Positions 14,961 through 63,640 of a stretch of 64,000 nucleotides of DNA are shown in pieces. The DNA lies in the NCBI GenBank assembly GCA_963678705.1, contig OY783203.1, positions 44,144,347 to 44,208,346 of the forward strand. Reading direction: 5' to 3'. This DNA is from Panorpa germanica. Taxonomy: Eukaryota > Arthropoda > Insecta > Mecoptera > Panorpidae. Below the pieces are notes generated by a model. The model was not told the DNA's origin, did not search any database, and worked only from the letters and a program-made list of their open reading frames with translations. A program made the position numbers and the translations under genes. The number at the start of each line of letters is the position of its first letter. The first letter of the stretch is position 1.

Positions 14961-14985
14961 TATTTATTATTTTAGAAGAGGTATC

Positions 14986-16939
14986 ATGTCCAAATTATGT
15001 AAGAATATGGTTTTTAAGAAGCCTTACATATATTTAAAAAAAGTGGATGACTATCTTCTCAAAAGCAAAAGTGTTTTGTATATTGGAATTGCCGATGGCG
15101 AGTTTTTCATAAAGGAGTTCATGCCAGTTGTACCAGAGAATGTCAAAGTTATAGCAGTAACTGGTACAACTAAAGAAATAGTAGATGCATTTGCAATTAA
15201 GTATGCAGCGGAACTGGCGGAAATAGAAAAAACGCGAAAAATTACTCTACATGTATTGGATCTGGTGGGTAAAGAATATTCCCGTATTGATAAGTTCGAC
15301 TGCATCATTTCATTTTGGGACACTGGAGTTGCTAGCAATCTGAAGTAAGTTTTTACATACGCATAGACTCAAATGTAAAAGTGATGTAGTATTAATGCTT
15401 ATTTTATTACAGATTAGCGTATCCAAGAATCAGGGTAATGATGAAAGATTCAGGCGCTGCAATTATTATGATTGAAGTAAGAGGCTATTTTTGGGATGCT
15501 GTTTACAATGTATCAGTTATGCCAGAGTGGTACCCTTATTTAAATGGCGTTGTTGATGCCATTCCACCAACATTTCATAATTTTTGGTACAAAATAGATA
15601 AGGTATTAGAGAATGATGAGGAGCGAAAGTATAGGTGGAGTGATGGAGAACTTGCTGAATATAATGATTTTGACGATTATATGGGTAGGAAGATAATAAT
15701 TACATGCTATTTTGTAAATTAAACAAATCTTAAAGGTTCTTTTAGAAAAGCTTAAATTTTAAGAGGGGTGGTCTGAAAATTGCGCCATAAACTGCATTAT
15801 TAACATAAACATTATGTGTATGCATACACAATATATACATTTTTAAGCATTTACAATACATAATTTACAACTTATAGACATGAGTATGAGTGTGACACGA
15901 GTATGGGTATTTAAAATAAGGAGATTAAATTACTTTTATTGATAAAGACAATAACGTTTTTCAGACTTTCCCTGCTTTCAAATAATTGCCTATATACCTC
16001 AGTCATATTACAGCTTTTGAAAATTATTTCTATTCTAGTTATTATTTTATAATACTGGAACAGATTTGTACAGGTCCGATTCGAGAGTAATTTATAGTAG
16101 ATGCGAGATGAAGATTTGGCGGCTTCTTTCTTCCTTATAATAGTGTACTGTGATATTATATTACACTAGGCGCTACTTTTTTAGATATTGGTGACCGAAG
16201 TTCGATGCTACTTTGAACGGTTGATGCTACTTTTCATTTTGTTTTAAGAAGCAACAGAATGAAAATAAATTTTCGAATTACTTATGTTGTTTTTTGGTGC
16301 GTTTATTACTGTGTAATTCACAGGAATGTGTTTTAAATACCGAATGATTGTTTCTTGATTACTGCCACATACCATTTAAATCATCAAATTTATAGGTTAA
16401 CGTCATTATATTTAGTGAATATCAGAAAAGCTCAGTTACCGCTGAGATAATATTATAACTGAGTATTCACGAAATATGTAGACTTGGAGACAATTTAAAG
16501 AATAATTTTGGCCAAATTTTCAGATCATTGCCACATTATATATTTCAGATTAAAATAAGTTTCTATCACCATAAATTTTAAACTCTATAAGAATTCATAT
16601 TTAATTATTTAATATATATTGAAAATTATTATTTGCAAAAATCAAGTTTAACTTTTTATAGTCATTTAAGAAAATAATCTTATTCTGATTCTAGCTACTC
16701 TTAATAAAATGTATACCTTTAAGGACTATATTCCTGCTGAAAGATTAAGACAGTTTTATGATCTGATTTATGCTGAAACATTGCGCTTAGCAGATTTCGA
16801 CTATTCAACCATTGAAGTCAATCCACCTAAGGTAACTTATCCTTATTCAGTTGCTGTACTTATTTTACCTAACCCTCGAGAACCAAAGAAGAAAGCCATC
16901 AAAACCGAAACCGAAACCGAAACCGAAACCGAAACCTAA
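14986..16939 (+). CDS. JHAMT-like SAM-dependent methyltransferase, copy 1
   Basis: Three exons: 14986-15344, 15413-15684 and 16695-16939 (359+272+245 nt, 291 residues). Introns are 68 bp (phase 2, AA|GTAAGT...ACAG|A) and 1010 bp (phase 1, G|GTAGGA...CTAG|C). An acceptor (TTTTAG at 14975) lies 10 nt before the ATG, so an untranslated leader exon is likely. The product fits a class I SAM methyltransferase fold. Motif I is at residues 30-38 (VLYIGIADG), the FD...SF motif at 104-110, and then come a conserved Y..W and PP.F block and a C-terminal YIPAERLRQFYDLIYAETL segment. Length and block order match insect juvenile hormone acid methyltransferases, which methylate the carboxyl group of JH acid or farnesoic acid using SAM. 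Departures: no acidic residue in motif I, its middle Gly is Ala36, beta-2 Asp is replaced by Thr59, and the usual His-Trp after SFY is Gly114-Val115. The C-terminus is a (TE)5T tail absent from the sister genes. JHAMT-like fold is fairly secure; activity is uncertain. Confidence 0.82.
15795..15965 (-). repeat. Dispersed repeat family C, copy in intron 2 of copy 1
   Basis: CATAATTTACAACTTATAGAC, a ...GAGTATGGGTATTTAAAATAA block and GAGATTAAATTA...TTTTATTGATAAAGACAAT follow in order. The same blocks occur in reverse complement at 23560-23695 and 54880-55040, and in part at 25405-25460. No coding potential. Probably a fragment of an old transposon. Confidence 0.6.
16904..16939 (+). repeat. (ACCGAA)n hexanucleotide repeat in coding sequence
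   Basis: Five ACCGAA units encode alternating Thr-Glu at the end of methyltransferase copy 1. The last unit reads ACCTAA, which supplies the stop codon. The tract may change length by replication slippage. Confidence 0.95.
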
Positions 16940-17035
16940 ATTGTTGTAAATTCTTTGTTCTTTCAAAATACTTTTGTTTTAAACATTTCATATTTAAATA
17001 TTTATTAATGTATACTTTAGTAGAAATTAAAATTG

Positions 17036-17041
17036 AATAAA
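17036..17041 (+). promoter_or_regulatory. Poly(A) signal of methyltransferase copy 1
   Basis: AATAAA about 97 bp after the stop codon. It sits in a TTGAATAAATTTAAATTA context that is similar downstream of all three paralogues. Confidence 0.6.
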
Positions 17042-17044
17042 TTT

Positions 17045-18410
17045 AAATTATATTTACAAAAAATGTTTCTTTATACAAACCCACTAAGCACTTTTTTGTA
17101 GAATATATATAAAATTACCTATAAATATATCAGTTACATAATTGTTACGAAAATGTTATATTTATATTTACTGGAAGTGTTTAAATTTTTATTTATTGCT
17201 CCAATAGACAGAGAGCTATGTTATGAACATGCTCGTACATGTGTGACTACCATATTTAATACAGATTACATACTACACTGTTAATTGGCAAAAGATTTCT
17301 CAACTACAACACGGTTGATTTTAAGACAGCGATCACGGTATATGCAAAAGGTGAATGTTGTTTCTTTAAATATAAATGCTATATTAAATTGTAGTAATGA
17401 TCCATTCAGTTTACACATAACCAGCAAGCCCATTAAGGCTACAGTTTACAACAAAGGAAATTAGGTTAATATATCTTACATAAAGATTCATTGGACATAA
17501 TTTTACGATTGCTGACTTAAATACTTTCATGCAAGATTATATAACGTTCAATATTAAACTAATGTATTTATAAAACATGATAAACCTCGATGAATAATAA
17601 AACGTAAAATTGATTTAAAATATAATATTAATAATACATGAATTTTGTGGTTAGCGAAATAATATATATAACAAACAAAAATACTTTAATTTAAAATAAG
17701 TCCATATATCACTGGTAGAAAATTGAGTGCTGTTCAAATTCAAGTATGCTAGCTAGCTACGAGCTAATTCCTAGATCCAAATAATTTATAAAATGTTCCT
17801 GTCTAACAGAATTTATGTGCAGTGTACGAGTACTTCAAACAGCCAACAATTTGTTATTATATTGAAATTCATTGGAGAACAATAGTCCTTTATTTTATAT
17901 TTCATACAAATTATGTTTCTCAATAAACTCAATTATAATTGTTATAACAATATGCTAGAAATTGTAGGCTTAATGGTCGAATTCTAAATTGAATTCAGAT
18001 AGATCACTAGTGATTTTGCTAATTTATAAAGTTATAAAGTGTTATAGGTATATATATAAGTGTTAAAGTGTAAAGAGTTATAAAATGTAAGTAATATCAG
18101 AGATATCCAAGTTTCAGGCACCTATTTAGGTATTAACGCGTCGGAGTCAGTTAAATATTTCTAAATTAAGTTAATGTAATTTTTAACCGTTAAAACATTA
18201 CGTACTCTTTTAGATAGATTTTGTCTTAAATCTTGAAATTCCACAGCGGTACTTTTTGGTTCGCATCATTTGTAAGTAGGTATTTCCGTTTAATGTTTGC
18301 AAGAGGCTCAAAACTATTACCGTATTGTTTGGTACATTTTTTAACTCGAATGAATAACAATGACAATTCATGTATAATTCAGCCGACATATAATCAGTTT
18401 ACTTATTTAT
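17045..18410. other. Spacer between methyltransferase copies 1 and 2
   Basis: AT-rich spacer that must contain the promoter and leader exon of copy 2. Possible leader donors are AT|GTAAGTAA at about 18087 and TT|GTAAGTAG at about 18268; neither can be chosen from sequence alone. The last 18 bp of the upstream intron (ATTTATTATTTTAG) match those of copy 1. Confidence 0.5.
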
Positions 18411-18430
18411 TATTTTAGAAAGTCATTATC

Positions 18431-20655
18431 ATGTATAAAAAACCAACCGATCCAGAAGTTATAAAAGACGATATTCCCATCCTGTGCGAAACTTTAAATA
18501 GTCGACTTTACAAAGCATGTGAAAGAAAACTGAATACATTTAAAATTCTTGATAAATGTGAGAATATTTTGTTTCATGGAGTTGGTGACGGCGAATTTTT
18601 TATAAATGTGTTCTTGCCAAAACTACCAGAAAATGTTAAAACTGTAGTTGGAACCTGTACATCAGAAAACGCAATATTTGAAATATTGACGAAGAATAAA
18701 GATGTATTAATTGAAATGGGGAAAAAACGGGTAATTGATATTATAGAATTTGATCTGATAAGTGAAGAAGATTACGATATAGATAAGTTCGACTCAATTG
18801 TTTCATTCTATGATCAAGGAATTGCTCTCAACTCGAGGTAAATGCAACCTAATTAAGACATTATATACTCGTATACTCGTATATTTACATCAAATATCTT
18901 ACTATACATTTCATTTGATTTTTCCAGTTACCAGTATTTCTTACACAACATGTACCATATATTTTCTGCATTATATGTTATATGCTAAATAAATGAGGCG
19001 GTCAAAACCAATGTTTAGTAAGTCAAAGTTGCAACTTTTTTAGTTAAGTGTAGAAATCCAATCTCCATTCATTTAGTTTTATTACATGGAAACATAGCAT
19101 AACTCATAGCTTCAAATATTTATTTGGCAACCATATAATGGCTTCAATCAGACATTTATATGATTACGCTCATGGTTACTGTTTTCTCTCAAATGATTTG
19201 GACTACAACTCCATTGCGGTAGCACCATTTTTGTAACCGATTCTGCCACCATAAATAAAGTTAACCTCACAAAAATGACTCGAGAGGGTTTCAAGCGGGT
19301 TTAAATATGTAAATAAAAAATACAACACGTGGATATTAGCTTACAATAATGCAATGTTTCCTTAAAACAAAACCTAGTAATATTAAATTCAAAATGGTCG
19401 TAGTTTAGTATTTTATAGCTATTATAAAAGTCATCAATTATTAAAAAAAATTCCTTTGGTTTAGTAATCGTTAAAAAAATGTTTTTAAGAAGTTTTATGA
19501 CTATGCTAATTCGCAGAATAGTAGATGTACTGTAAAGTAACAAAACGTTGTATATGAACTAAAATCGTTTACGTAATATGTAAGTTTTGTTATATAAGAA
19601 ATCTTAAAATACAGGTTACTGCCTTTAGCAGATAAACTCGTATATAGAAATAAAAAGGATCCAATTAAACAATATTTTCAACCATAATCACTTCAACAAC
19701 TCATGCATCCTATTAATACAACAATTCACAACTTCTGAGAAAGTCCGTGAACTTTATTTTGTTCTGACTAAATTATATTTAGTAGCAAAATAATAACGTG
19801 GAATATAAAATAACGTTTCCAGTAAGATACTTTGTTTCAAAAAATGACACAAAATCCTGACTTACACCATTTTGCTTTTCGCCGCCTCATATACACATAC
19901 GAGTATATCTATATACCTATTTATATAAATTAATATTAATTCAAATTTAATAATAATTTAATTTTATTACAGCTTAGCATATCAAAGACTTAAGGATTTG
20001 ATGAATGATAAAGCCTGTGCAATTTTTGTATTTGAAACGAGAAGTTATTTTTTTGAAGCACTATACCGGATGTCACTTTTGTCACCTTGGTCGGAATATC
20101 TGAAAGATCTACGTGCTGGCATTCCGAAAACATTTTTTGATTTTGCAACGAACATGAATGAGCTCATGAGTAAAGATTCAATGATAGTAAACTTTAAATA
20201 CTTTGAAGAAGAATTCATTGAATATGACGATTTTAACAGTTTAGTTGGTACGAAATTATATTTACAATTTTCAAATTAAACGTGTATGTACTTGTATTTA
20301 TGTTTCCCTAAAAATTGAAAGTTCAAGTACAGGGTTCCTCAAAATTGCATCATAAATTGCTTTGTGCTTGAATATTTTGTTTTACTTGTTCTTTAAATCT
20401 TGCGCAGTTTATTTATAATGCATAAGTAATTAATTATATTAAAATAAAAATCTTACTTTTATTTTAGGAGTGTTCGATGAAATATATACACTTGGGGAAT
20501 ATATTCCTGCTGATAAAATATATGAATTTTACCAGCTACTCTATGCTGAAACGTTACATTTAGCACGAGCAAATAATGAAAGGGTTGATGAAGACCACCC
20601 CAAAGTAGTATTTCCTTTAACAACTACTACATTCGTCATACCTAATTTTATTTAG
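18431..20655 (+). CDS. JHAMT-like SAM-dependent methyltransferase, copy 2
   Basis: Three exons: 18431-18837, 19973-20247 and 20468-20655 (407+275+188 nt, 289 residues). Introns are 1135 bp (phase 2, AG|GTAAAT...ACAG|C) and 220 bp (phase 1, G|GTACGA...TTAG|G), at the same positions as in copy 1. The first of these donors is normal and the second is weak. An acceptor ending at 18418 precedes the ATG by 12 nt. Motif I is at residues 46-54 (ILFHGVGDG); it keeps the GxGxG glycines, but the acidic residue is Phe. The beta-2 Asp is replaced by Thr75. FDSIVSFY is at 120-127, followed by Asp-Gln-Gly130-Ile131 where JHAMTs have Cys-Leu-His-Trp. Exon 2 supplies a SPW.EYL and IPKTF block. Exon 3 supplies YIPADKIYEFYQLLYAETL and a short hydrophobic end. 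The tail lacks the TE repeat of copy 1. Same family inference; substrate and activity unknown. Confidence 0.82.
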
Positions 20656-20757
20656 TCTAAAATCTTTATTTAGTCTAATTTTGTAAATTTCAATTCAGTT
20701 TAAATATTTCATAATCATTTTATATCATATCATTGTAATTAAAGTAATATGTAATTA

Positions 20758-20763
20758 AATAAA
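20758..20763 (+). promoter_or_regulatory. Poly(A) signal of methyltransferase copy 2
   Basis: AATAAA about 100 bp after the stop, in an AATAAATTGAAATTA context resembling that of copy 1. Confidence 0.6.
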
Positions 20764-20860
20764 TTGAAATTATGTTTTCGAAAACTGTTTATTCATAATG
20801 CATTAATAGAAATATTCGTGTAATACTTAATTACAACATAACTTTTTTATTTAGCTTGAT

Positions 20861-20913
20861 AACTAAACCCAGAAAATATAATATTGGTTCGAGAATTGAA
20901 CCCTAAGCGAGGT
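20861..20913 (-). mobile_element. SINE family A fragment
   Basis: On the minus strand a B-box-like GGTTCAATTC is followed at the family spacing by ATATTTTCTGGGTTT, as in the copies at 26929 and 40380. The head start and tail are missing. Confidence 0.5.
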
Positions 20914-20914
20914 G

Positions 20915-22360
20915 ATAGGAGAGGAGAGAGAAAAGCTAAAAACAGTAACAACAATTCAGACCTTAAGGGCTAACTCAGAGTGACTTGCGATCGACTATCT
21001 GAGATCGACTTGTTTTTCAAACCGTGAACTTTGGGAATAAGAGCTGTATCGAGATACCACTAAAAACTGCAGTGATTCTTCTTCCATCTCCTGCCATCTC
21101 CATCTCTTAGTATATATTTTTAAGCAAGATTTAACTATTTCTATACATGAAGATAAAGCTATTTACTATTTCCTTTTTGTAGTAATATCTCATGGTTCAA
21201 TTACGAAGTTTTCTCCATACTTCTTATTAATTATTCATTAGAACTTTTCCTCGATTTTCTGCTGTTAATGAATTCTTTATAGTGTCTGAAATAAATTGCT
21301 CTCTTTCGCGGTAATTAGCACTGAATAATTAAAACAGGGTAGAAAAAGTGTTGTTTCTAAGCGAAATTTCTTAGTAACTGATACATTATACTCCTGCATT
21401 ATTCTGCAAACTAATTTAACTTACTTGCGCCTTATACTCGTATTGTGCTTCTATTTATGTAACGTATGTTACGGTTCTGAGTTTCATCAAAGTGCTTATT
21501 TTACGTATTGTACCTTTCAATTGTTTACTCTTTATAATTATTGTTAAGTATTTATTTCTTCCTTTAATTATACGATAATATTTTTATGACAAAACTGGTT
21601 TTATTATAAAAATAGTCAAAAAATGTATTTGTTTTTTTATTGATTTACAAAGAATAATTTTATCTTGCTGAAAGTTTATTATTACTATTACTACTTACAG
21701 TCAGTAAGTGTTTTAATAAACGTCAATTTAATTAAAAAAACAACAGTTTTTAAATTTCATTTTAGTAGTTTTATTTAATAAAAAAAAAGTTTAATAAAAA
21801 GGAACTAATTTCGAAGATCTCGGTTCACGTCGTAAGTAAATTATAATTATAACGACATTTCAATATTGTCTTAAGATTAGTACTTTTATTTATATTTTTC
21901 GTGTCTTTAAGATTTGTGGTTTCCAAGAATACTTGCAAATTTCAATAAGGAATTCCCGCTAAAAACTAGTAGTAATTAATTTAAATGGATTTTAATTTAT
22001 AGTTATTTTAAAAGTGTTTAAACTTTAAAAAGGGGTTCCTAAAATGCTAAAATCCATAAATAAGTATCTAAAAAAGTTTTATGATGATGTTAGTTAGTAA
22101 AAAGGAGAAAAATAAGTCACAAAGAGTAACAAATAACTTTTGAAGTTAACTAATGAGGTATTTTTCCATCTGACTGTAAATATCTACATACACAAACATT
22201 CATATATTCAAAATACTAATTCAATAATCACCTTCTTCTCTTAGAGCTATATATGCTACATTTCAGCTAAACACAACTACGTGCATTTGCCATCACCTTT
22301 TACATTACCATTAGTTTTCTTGCATTTCAAAGAATAATGTAACTATTTTTAATAATTGTA
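20915..22360. other. Spacer between methyltransferase copies 2 and 3
   Basis: AT-rich DNA with no open frame of note. It should contain the promoter and leader exon of copy 3. Confidence 0.45.
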
Positions 22361-22371
22361 GACTTATCATC

Positions 22372-24854
22372 ATGGACGTGTATAGTAACCTACCAAACCT
22401 GTGTAAAAATTCAAATAAACGACAGCGTGAAATATGTAGAGACAAGTTAGCCAGGTTTAGTATTCTAAATGAACGTAAAAGTGTGCTGTATATTGGGCTT
22501 GGAAACGGTGATGCATTTTTCAATAATTTTTTGCCATTATTACCAGAAACTGTTACAAAAGTGGTTGCTACTGATCTAATTGAAAAAGATTTACTATTGA
22601 CAGTTCAGAACAATGTTAGTAATTTAATAAATGAACAAAGAAAAGGAAGATTGGTTACTTTTAAACAAATGGATCTACTAAGTGACAGTTTTGTTAAGTT
22701 TGATACTTTCGACTGCATTGTATCATGTTGGTGTCTACGAAGTATTCATAATATGAGGTAAATTTAATTGAAAACAAATCATTTGTGTGCATGTATACAT
22801 ATTAAAACATCCAAATTAGCAGAACACCAGTAGGGTAAAAAAATTAACCATCAACAAAGTGTTAAATCAGTGAAAAACAAACCATCCTGATCGGGGATCG
22901 AGCCCCAAAGCTTTACCTTAGTACGCCAATTCTCTGATACTAAGCTACCAGTGTCATTAGTAATATGTAATATTTATTTTAATTTAATAATAATCTCGGT
23001 TTGAATATACACCAAATCACTCGGGAGCCAGTTTTACCTTTTGATATTTACTTATTTTATTTACCATGTGTGAAGTAACAATCCAAGTTTTGCTTAATAT
23101 AAAGTGTAATCTTATAGTAAATTTTTGATGTTAAATGTAAACTTTTATATGAGGAATCTTAAATGCATGTACATAATTGTTGTGTGCGGGAAGTTATATA
23201 ATTGAAACAAAGTTTGGATAATAATTTGGTTTAAGTTGCAATTTTCTGAAATAGTGAATGGAATAGAAATAGTATTGTGATGTTACCAGTAGAAATCTTA
23301 GATGTTTAGACATATAATTTAGAATAAAGACAGGAATCTCAAATTCAAAATACTCGTATCATTTGACCACTCTTTCGTCTTTTAGCTAAAGTACGTACCA
23401 ACAATAAATAACACGAAACAAGATATTTACAATAAATGAAGGATTATTTTGCAGTGATATTTTGCAGATATTGTGTCCAATTACTAATCTCAGAAAAATA
23501 GCACCACTTTTCACAAAATTATTTCGTTTTTCTCTTGATTTAACATGACACCATCAAACAAACTTAATCTCTTTATTTTAAATACTTGTACTCGTGTTTA
23601 TAACTTGTTAATTATGTATTGCAAATATTTATAAATATTATTTTAAGTGTTAATAACTGTCAAAAGTTGATGCACTCAAATAAATTTAAAAAAAAAATGA
23701 CACCTCTTGTTGAAAGTTTCTTTTTATATAAGAAATACATATGCACGGGGTATGTTTCGAATTTGGTTTTATGAAATTAACAAACAATATTCTTTATTAT
23801 ATTGCAGATTAGCTTATCCTCGATTGAAATCTATGCTAAATTTTGACGGTGTTGGGATATTTTTTTATGAAACATATAATTGTTTTTGGGCGGCTGCTGA
23901 ATATTTGACGGGAAAAGATCCTTGGAGATTACATCGCGCTGAGATAACTTATGGGTTTCCACCAACCTTTAAGCAATTAGGAACGGATATAATAGATATG
24001 GGCATAAGTGAATCTACTTACTCCTTTAGCGATAAAGAATATTACGAGTATAATAGTTTCAAAGAATTTGTGGGTAAGAAAATTTAAAATTTAGTTTAAT
24101 ATTAAAAAAGTGTGACTTATATATCAGTTCTAAAACCTCCATTTTGGGTAATTTACGCCGGGTGGAAATAAATCTGTATCTGTAAATTTTTATCAAACTG
24201 CAGTTCTTTTTCGCTCGAATTATTAATAGCCAGTTCGCTTATATGATTCTATGTGTTAAAAATTGCAGTAAAAATACTTCGCGGTGCTTCCTTGTGGTGC
24301 AGACTTAGTGTTACATCGGGACACATGATTCTTCATGGTCCCATATTTGGTCATGGAATGAACATATTTGCAAATTTTCTGTCTACTATATATGCTATAG
24401 TACGAACATCGCTAAAGCAAATATTCGTACGTTTTGTTGTGTGCCATATACAGCTAGTAGAATGGAAACATTTGTCTTCGTGTACATACACCGAATGTTT
24501 GCCCTATGAGCACAAACTCTGTGATACATAAGCGTATTCATAGTCAATTACGCATGTGTTGATTTGGAGTTAAACTATAGCAAAAAACATATACTACATT
24601 ACATTACTATTAAACTGACAATTAAAAATTTGTAAAATATTGTTCCAGAGTCTCTCGAAGCATCATATACCATTGCTGATCGACTTCCTGAACATTTCAA
24701 GATAGATAACTTTTTTTATAGGAGCGTTCTTATGGAATGGTCACACCTTTTAACAGAAGCAGAAAAAAAATTTGCTGCTGAAAGGAGTACAATTTTATTG
24801 CCTGTTGTAGTTACCACATTTTTAATGGGAAAATTTGTTAATGTTGACACTTAA
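22372..24854 (+). CDS. JHAMT-like SAM-dependent methyltransferase, copy 3
   Basis: Three exons: 22372-22757, 23808-24073 and 24649-24854 (386+266+206 nt, 285 residues). Introns are 1050 bp (phase 2, AG|GTAAAT...GCAG|A) and 575 bp (phase 1, G|GTAAGA...CCAG|A), at the same positions as in the sister genes. An acceptor (GTAG) ends 10 nt before the ATG. This is the least eroded copy. Motif I at residues 38-46 reads VLYIGLGNG with all three glycines, though Tyr replaces the usual acidic residue. The beta-2 Asp, which in this fold holds the SAM ribose, is present as Asp68 (VVATD). FDCIVSCWCLR is at 113-123, then Ser124 where JHAMTs have Trp. Exon 2 carries the DPW and FPPTF block. Exon 3 (ESLEASYTIADRLPEHFK...) diverges most from the other copies and ends in a hydrophobic stretch. 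Exon 3 is too short and divergent to stand out as an open frame; it was placed by splice phase and alignment. Confidence 0.8.
22880..22955 (-). repeat. tRNA-like sequence, probably a SINE head or tRNA pseudogene
   Basis: On the minus strand an A-box-like TAGCTTAGTATCAGAG is followed by a B-box-like GGGCTCGATCCCC at tRNA spacing. The T-arm can pair, but the acceptor ends do not pair with each other and the D and anticodon stems have mismatches. A functional tRNA is therefore unlikely. Its internal sequence differs from the family A SINE head. It sits in intron 1 of methyltransferase copy 3. Confidence 0.6.
23560..23695 (+). repeat. Dispersed repeat family C, copy in intron 1 of copy 3
   Basis: Matches 54905-55040 over TCTTTATTTTAA.TAC..GTACTCGTGT.TATAA and on to AAAGTTGATGCACTCAAATAA, with small indels. 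It matches the reverse complement of part of 15795-15965. Confidence 0.7.
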
Positions 24855-24984
24855 AATAGACTTAATGTTTAATTTAAATTATATTTTGGAATTTTATTTA
24901 TTCTATATATACTTTTTACTTGAAATTTTTTGACAACTATATTTAGTGTAGTATGTACTATTATTCTGTTTGCAAGCTTATTTA

Positions 24985-24990
24985 AATAAA
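24985..24990 (+). promoter_or_regulatory. Poly(A) signal of methyltransferase copy 3
   Basis: AATAAA about 130 bp after the stop in a TTAAATAAATTTAA context shared with copy 1. Confidence 0.55.
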
Positions 24991-59951: not shown

Positions 59952-60194
59952 ATAAACCTTGACATGTATCTAGAAACAGTAAAGTAAGTTAAAGTTTAGC
60001 ATTTCCAAGAAAGTGTATAATTAGCAATTTTAAGACGTACCATTGCACAGTATTCCACTGAAACAGTAACAAAACATAAACCTTGACATGTATCTAGAAG
60101 CAGTAAAGTAAGTTAAAGTTTAGCATTTCCAAGAAAGTGTATAATTAGCAATTTTAAGACGTACCATTGCACAGTATTCCACTGAAACAGTAAC
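59952..60194. repeat. Recent tandem duplication, 124-bp period
   Basis: Copies of 119 bp at 59952-60070 and 60076-60194 differ at one base (AAACAG/AAGCAG), with AAAAC between them. Confidence 0.97.
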
Positions 60195-62254: not shown

Positions 62255-62850
62255 AAAATTATTGATATTTAAGCAAATCGTTGATAGAAATATAACTTAA
62301 TATACTTGAACTTGAGGGAAGACTTGTCTCTATATATAATTCACTACAAAATAATATATTCAAAAAGTCCGTGATTTGAAATAGCTGACTTAGTTGTACG
62401 AGTATATTTTAAACAAATAGAAATTTTAGATTACGGGGAATATTAATTAGTTTCTCGCTTATTAGTTTGTTTTTTATTCTCCAGTAAATCAAATGAATGC
62501 ACTGCACTGGCTTCATATTATAAAACGTAAATACTTCCTACGCATTATGGGTAAAATTATTGATATTTAAGCAAATCGTTGATAGAAATATAAATTAATA
62601 TACTTGAACTTGAGGGAAGACTTGCCTCTGTATATAATTCACTCTAAAATAATATATTCAAAAAGTCAGTGATTTGAAATAGCTGACTTAGTTGTACGAG
62701 TATATTTTAAACAAATAGAAAATTTAGATTACGGGGAATATTAATTAGTTTCTCGCTTATTAGTTTGTTTTTCATTCTCCAGTAAATCAAATGAATGCAC
62801 TGCACTGGCTTCATATTATAAAACGTAAATACTTCCTACGCATTATGGGT
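62255..62850. repeat. Recent tandem duplication, 298-bp unit
   Basis: Units 62255-62552 and 62553-62850 are about 98 percent identical (around seven differences) and abut directly. No coding frame or known element is visible inside. Confidence 0.97.
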
Positions 62851-62854
62851 GAAA

Positions 62855-63640
62855 TGTAAAGTAAAATGTAAAGAACTTCTGCAAATTCAACACAGCTATT
62901 TTTTAATTAAAAATAAAATTACGATTTAAAATTGAACCAAAACTTCAGTGAGCAAACAAATAACATATTAGATAACAGGTAATAATCAACAATCCAAGAT
63001 TTAAAAAATTCTTCACGTATTTAATATGTTTGAATACGAATGAATTTAACTCTTTGAAATGTGTTTTGGTTAAAAGGATCAGAAATAAATACCACAAATA
63101 CGAGTATACAAACGAAATACACAATTAAATAAGAGGTGGTAATAATGAATCATAGTTAACATTTGTTATCGTACTTTATTTACAATTTTCCGAAAGTTTT
63201 AACTAATAAATATTTATTTTAACAAAGGATAAAGTCTACTCTCTTTGCAAGCACTATATAACACTTTTATCATTAAAAGAACCCTCTTAAAGTAAACATT
63301 AAGTTTTGACATTTATAAAAATATGGTTCTAAATAAAGTTTTTAACATAAATAGTAACTGGGATTAAAGCTTTCTCGTAGAACTTACCAAATGGTTATCT
63401 CAAAACTAGACTCTAAGTAAAAGGTGACCGTTTCAAATGAATAAAGTAAAAGAAAAGTCTGAAGAGTTAGTTTAGTAGTTGCGGCGACCTCTGTAGGTTG
63501 CTGCACTGTGGTTCTGCCGTTTCAGAACGTTCTACGAATGGAAAAATTACTTCAAGAATACGTGATTTAAGTTCAAGTGATTTTGTTTTTAAAGAAAAGC
63601 TAATATTTATAGATTCCATTTATTTCCTTTTGTATAAATG
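62855..63640. other. AT-rich stretch, nothing recognised
   Basis: No supported feature; a slightly GC-richer patch lies at 63475-63535. Confidence 0.45.

Follow-up and report, generated by a model that had tools for sequence, protein, structure and literature searches.

The closest described relatives of the genes reported here are the insect juvenile hormone acid methyltransferases (JHAMTs), which include structurally characterized proteins (PDB: 9un4; 9xyo, 9xyq, and 9xys from Choristoneura; 7ec0 from silkworm). For CfJHAMT, the available portion of PMC13223930 describes an acid group bound by Tyr7, Gln14, His115, and Trp116, Gln14 mutants that are inactive, and a Leu142 that sits against the terpenoid chain. 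Bursts of JHAMT copy number are already known (excerpt of PMC10015273), and so, therefore, is this kind of finding; the main text of that survey mentions neither Mecoptera nor Panorpa. We analysed a window of 64,000 nucleotides from Panorpa germanica (assembly GCA_963678705.1, contig OY783203.1, positions 44,144,347 to 44,208,346 of the forward strand), which carries three JHAMT-like genes, here called g1, g2, and g3. The contig (47,989,005 bases) is the P. germanica X chromosome of 47.99 Mb (PMC11464959, in excerpt), and in P. cognata the X shares homology with Muller element F, the ancestral dipteran X chromosome (PMC10715201, in excerpt). The trio belongs to a larger, mostly X-linked lineage with altered cofactor and pocket residues. 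We favour, with moderate confidence, the reading that this JHAMT-derived lineage has changed function: it would no longer esterify juvenile hormone (JH) acids and would serve a new role, possibly a non-catalytic one.

Gene modelling recovered three intact head-to-tail genes with three coding exons each, encoding proteins of 291 aa (g1), 289 aa (g2), and 285 aa (g3). A preliminary description of this stretch had delineated the same genes and placed them in the JHAMT-like family, and both points hold. A profile of the trio had six PDB matches at E ≤ 0.001, every one a JHAMT and none from an unrelated methyltransferase family, the best being 9un4 (7.7e-17). A six-gene lineage profile matched 9un4 over positions 6-271 at 4.7e-34 and autosomal JHAMT-like genes at 2.3e-37. 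On its own, whole g3 matched 9un4 at 1.1e-6, and g1 and g2 matched no Pfam family at E ≤ 1. The proteins belong to the class I methyltransferase (Rossmann) fold, and exon 1 of each window gene shares 22-26% identity with its best match among three PDB JHAMTs. We conclude from these profile matches that the trio is JHAMT-derived. The proteins are also as divergent from one another as previously described, with identities of 35% (g1-g2), 28-29% (g1-g3), and 30% (g2-g3). Of the three genes credited with the C-terminal IPAE..YAETL block, g1 has it and g2 almost matches it (IPAD), but g3 reads LPEH and has no YAETL.

Two changes run through the lineage. The Asp of S-adenosylmethionine (SAM) motif I, Asp40, is retained in 0/23 X exon-1s compared with 50/55 others, a set that counts the second chromosome 1 copy, itself a lineage member. 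The five others without it comprise three near-identical copies with His, one with Ile, and one with Leu, the last being that chromosome 1 copy. The position of CfJHAMT Leu142 is acidic in all 23 X exon-2s (21 Glu, 2 Asp) compared with 0/17 others; the X set consists of 20 rows, including an orphan exon at 27.287 Mb, together with three later rows, and the other set of 13 rows, three of them PDB chains, plus four from chromosome 10. The chromosome 1 pair, with Glu in the better copy and Thr in the other, is in neither count. The complete GxGxG is found in 9/23 X exon-1s (47/55 others), and His, Asn, or Gln occupies the His115 position in 3/23 (46/55 others). Within the trio, the motif-I Asp is absent from all three genes, the three glycines are present in g2 and g3 but not in g1, and His115-Trp116 is replaced by Gly-Val in g1, Gly-Ile in g2, and Arg-Ser in g3. 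At the Gln14 position, one alignment shows Lys for g1 and Leu for g2 (g1 is gapped there in another, where that region was trimmed), and g3, the least eroded of the trio, has Gln in both. Because the motif-I Asp and His115/Trp116 are absent in the trio, a JHAMT function is unsupported. The residue comparison indicates two events in the lineage: an acid has gone from the cofactor motif, and a new one has appeared at a position in the substrate pocket.

An earlier count, in which 38/38 autosomal copies kept Asp40, was revised to the figure above in the larger set. Near-identical JHAMT-like exon-1s with the motif-I Asp replaced by His lie on chromosome 2 (4.747 and 4.985 Mb) and on an unplaced contig (C157), and are apparently recent duplicates.

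The lineage comprises at least 25 genes, 23 at 11 X loci and two on chromosome 1 (~23.456-23.466 Mb). The genome was queried with six X members and the chromosome 1 copy, followed by local profiles on the retrieved loci; only part of the weak matches was retrieved, and the gene counts are lower bounds. The X loci lie at ~0.81, 0.96 (three genes), 1.24-1.26 (four), 1.33 (two), 4.06 (two), 4.86, 27.29 (two), 31.09 (two), 38.20, 44.16 (the window, three), and 47.09 Mb (two). Exon 2 of the first 47.09 Mb copy was not found, and the exon boundaries of the second chromosome 1 copy are unsure. Two further loci at ~0.61 Mb (C5) and ~5.79 Mb (C10) have a Pfam match but no exon-1 match and stand outside all counts. 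All 54 other JHAMT-like exon-1s examined are on non-X contigs, and none outside the lineage was found on the X. With the X making up 10.3% of the assembly, 11 of 12 lineage loci on it has a chance of 1.6e-10, a figure that overstates independence because within-chromosome duplication makes loci non-independent. The lineage-specific expansion proposed in the preliminary description thus stands within this genome and is larger than claimed, not merely a local array.

The idea that the lineage is strictly X-linked was rejected when an X-type gene pair turned up on chromosome 1. The X-type JHAMT-like gene at 23.4565-23.4594 Mb carries the acidic residue of the pocket, many SPKR/TPAKK repeats occur in its tail, and downstream of it is another copy that has diverged further. 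Beside these copies, at ~23.463 Mb, is a long open frame with hydrophobic stretches that by eye resembles an ionotropic receptor. On the X at ~8.663 Mb, a lineage exon-2-like fragment with an internal stop is apparently a decayed copy and was excluded from the counts.

In a three-exon tree, the 23 X and two chromosome 1 genes form one group (support 100/97), within which support is 97/90 for the trio and 100/99 for the pair of g1 and g2. Support for the trio in two other trees is 91/92 and 96/76. An exon-1 tree joined g2 and g3 (93/83) and left g1 apart, without a resolved placement. The common (tandem) origin proposed for the trio is therefore backed by three-exon trees (97/90; 91/92). The shared phases, on which that proposal had partly relied, are on their own no proof of tandem duplication because four modelled autosomal relatives fit the same phases. 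In the three-exon tree the chromosome 1 pair may fall either inside or outside the X copies. An earlier result, in which 21 X copies formed one clade at 100/100, was withdrawn, as it became unresolved with divergent autosomal rows; the group of X and chromosome 1 genes holds.

Both simulation and codon models point to constraint on the window trio. Random neutral substitution, simulated to the observed divergence, gave a mean of 13-16 stops per pair of trio genes, with 0/500 runs per pair stop-free. Across 11 divergent pairs the means were 7.7-16 stops, again with 0/500 runs stop-free, and two close pairs were uninformative (24% and 29% of runs stop-free). The window trio gets the fairest test here, since the exons of the relatives were first found as open segments. 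Omega in the window was 0.40, 0.56, and 0.63 under the GY, MG, and MGK models, respectively, and fixing omega at 1 and kappa at 2 gave a log-likelihood of -2544.2, 15 log units below that of free GY (-2529.2). These results indicate that the trio are coding genes under net constraint. Omega was 0.96-1.05 in the 0.96 Mb X cluster, 0.75-0.97 in the 1.24-1.33 Mb X cluster, and 0.24-0.375 in two autosomal clusters; as it is an average value, we make no claim of positive selection. Among exon-1 pairs with dS < 0.6, which are not mutually independent, median dN/dS was 1.16 for 13 X pairs compared with 0.30 for 25 autosomal pairs, and autosomal pairs were sometimes high too (up to 1.28 among the 18 listed).

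In the 0.96 and 1.24-1.33 Mb clusters omega is close to 1, which, together with the internal stop of the 8.66 Mb fragment, might suggest decaying JHAMT pseudogenes on the X. We consider this very improbable: the frames are open where no neutral run on any of the 11 divergent pairs stayed free of stops, the splice sites are intact, omega in the window is below 1, and the Leu142 position is acidic in 23/23. We likewise give little credence to the view that these are ordinary JHAMT-like paralogs still methylating fatty or terpenoid acids, their odd residues being the noise of fast evolution. Rapid change in JHAMT copy number, with 31 copies in Schistocerca (section 3.3 of PMC10015273, in excerpt), would agree with it, as would the fold kept in the g1 exon-1 model and the Gln14 kept in 11/23, but the two lineage-wide changes (Asp40, 0/23 versus 50/55; acidic 142, 23/23 versus 0/17) are hard to ascribe to noise. 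The preliminary description had suggested other fatty or terpenoid acids as substrates, a proposal weakened by the changed His115/Trp116, the changed Gln14 in g1 and g2, and the charged residue at the terpenoid contact. The non-catalytic role it had also offered is the better fit, with catalysis on another substrate less likely.

Such catalysis would make the proteins active SAM-dependent methyltransferases on a new substrate, perhaps one positively charged near the methylated group and held by the new acidic residue. This is a possible but doubtful account: the adenine-contact Asp/Asn is kept in 23/23 and the three glycines in 9/23 X exon-1s, and the sharing of one new acidic residue suggests that a specific site was gained; on the other hand, the motif-I Asp is missing in 23/23 and the full GxGxG in 14/23, and g1 and g2 lack any Pfam match at E ≤ 1. 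We judge a pseudoenzyme somewhat likelier than an active methyltransferase of a new kind, and a non-JH role of the lineage is likely. Several observations weigh against a changed, possibly non-catalytic function. Asp/Asn92, the adenine contact, is universal among the X exon-1s, Asp/Glu68 is retained in 19/23, Tyr7 in 12/23 (40/55 others), Gln14 in 11/23, g3 among them (35/55 others), and Trp116 in 11/23 (10/55 others, 22/55 having Phe), so cofactor or acid binding is not clearly lost in all copies. The AlphaFold2 model of g1 exon 1 (pLDDT 83.5) is an ordinary methyltransferase fold. The copy counts are not independent events because the changes are linked by descent, and the X copies without the chromosome 1 pair were not shown to be one clade after divergent autosomal rows were added (approximately unbiased test, p 0.44; 0.31).

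With functional change as the preferred reading, a JHAMT-derived lineage would have moved to, or arisen on, the Panorpa X and then multiplied at 11 loci. Its proteins would no longer esterify juvenile hormone acids; the methyltransferase fold may have been kept as a scaffold whose altered pocket binds a new ligand or partner, and use of SAM would be weak or absent in the copies that are eroded furthest. That they act in reproduction or in the germ line is speculation.

Three of 14 X gene models are long, encoding proteins of 418 and 540 aa (1.33 Mb) and 368 aa (0.81 Mb). The 1.33 Mb proteins have Lys-rich ends, and the 0.81 Mb protein has an SR/SP-rich tail. The 0.81 Mb tail contains six [ST]P.?[KR] motifs against a shuffle mean of 1.9, the chromosome 1 tail seven against 0.9, and the two 1.33 Mb tails none. 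The two members at X 1.330-1.337 Mb carry AAGNQ-type or AAKQ/ANQ-type repeats followed by Lys-rich stretches. We think it unlikely, if conceivable, that the full picture is an X-rich pseudo-methyltransferase family on an ancient X, with rapid and partly adaptive change, some basic disordered tails, and a nuclear or germ-line role.

Features of the trio are collected in Table 1. All six introns of g1-g3 are GT..AG with phases 2 then 1, the only phases that the gene-model script allowed. The leader acceptor and poly(A) context noted before are both present: an acceptor-like AG lies 10, 12, and 10 nt 5' of the ATG in g1, g2, and g3, and AATAAA or ATTAAA starts 82-130 nt past each stop. An acceptor-like site with at least 9/13 pyrimidines and at most 15 nt from the start was found in 10/21 X genes (one such model lacks a Met start), 0/38 autosomal genes, and 75/1127 control ATGs; g1 and g2 pass the pyrimidine threshold and g3 narrowly misses it. 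This pattern among the X genes fits a putative inherited leader intron.

Table 1. Coordinates of the trio's exons and flanking signals in the window (position 1 is its first letter).
Feature	Position	Strand	Remarks
g1 acceptor-like site 5' of ATG	14961..14975	+	leader intron inferred
g1 exon 1	14986..15344	+	119 codons + 2 nt; motif I LYIGIADGE; AlphaFold2 model of exon, pLDDT 83.5
g1 exon 2	15413..15684	+	Glu141 (codon 15474-15476) at CfJHAMT Leu142 position
g1 exon 3	16695..16939	+	(TE)n tail at end, then TAA
g2 acceptor-like site 5' of ATG	18404..18418	+	leader intron inferred
g2 exon 1	18431..18837	+	motif I LFHGVGDGE
g2 exon 2	19973..20247	+	Glu157 (codon 20034-20036) at CfJHAMT Leu142 position
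g2 exon 3	20468..20655	+	stop included
g3 acceptor-like site 5' of ATG	22347..22361	+	weaker, 8/13 pyrimidines
g3 exon 1	22372..22757	+	motif I LYIGLGNGD
g3 exon 2	23808..24073	+	Glu150 (codon 23869-23871) at CfJHAMT Leu142 position
g3 exon 3	24649..24854	+	stop included
AATAAA 3' of g3	24985..24990	+	comparable signals at 17036 (g1) and 20758 (g2)

Four further long open reading frames in the window had no Pfam domain above the Pfam cut-off. Two-copy tandem repeats of ~124 and ~298 nt lie at window positions 59952-60194 and 62255-62855, with 99 and 97% matches, respectively. Elsewhere in the genome, TIM is located on chromosome 10. The 30K lipoprotein family (PF03260), tried as a lepidopteran marker, gave no match, and neither did the controls.

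JHAMT duplicates are common, but this lineage offers a clear example in which to ask how an enzyme of hormone synthesis turns to a different role. Its distinctive combination is a dropped cofactor-site acid, a changed acid-binding clamp, a new pocket residue, and concentration on one ancient sex chromosome. Juvenile hormone work in Mecoptera would be misled by annotating these genes automatically as JHAMT. Within the paper searches made, we found no report of an X-linked JHAMT lineage with such changes, no work combining X-linked multicopy genes with juvenile hormone, and, among the papers listed, nothing relevant on pseudoenzyme methyltransferases or on X-linked amplification.

The trio resembles insect JHAMT in length, in a near whole-length profile match, in the exon-1 fold, and in the FD..S block; unlike JHAMT, it has no motif-I Asp, His115/Trp116 are changed, an acid stands at the Leu142 position, and the exon 1s have the low identities given above. 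It shares duplication in clusters with JHAMT-like paralogs of Musca, Schistocerca, and Bombyx (PMC10015273, in excerpt). The four autosomal JHAMT-like genes modelled in this genome likewise fit a three-exon structure and phases 2 then 1, whereas the 54 other JHAMT-like exon-1s differ from the lineage in retaining the motif-I Asp (50/54), with low omega in the two autosomal clusters. Slx, Stellate, and Dox are X-linked multicopy families in sexual conflict. By analogy only, the lineage resembles these families in its concentration on the X and its fast change.

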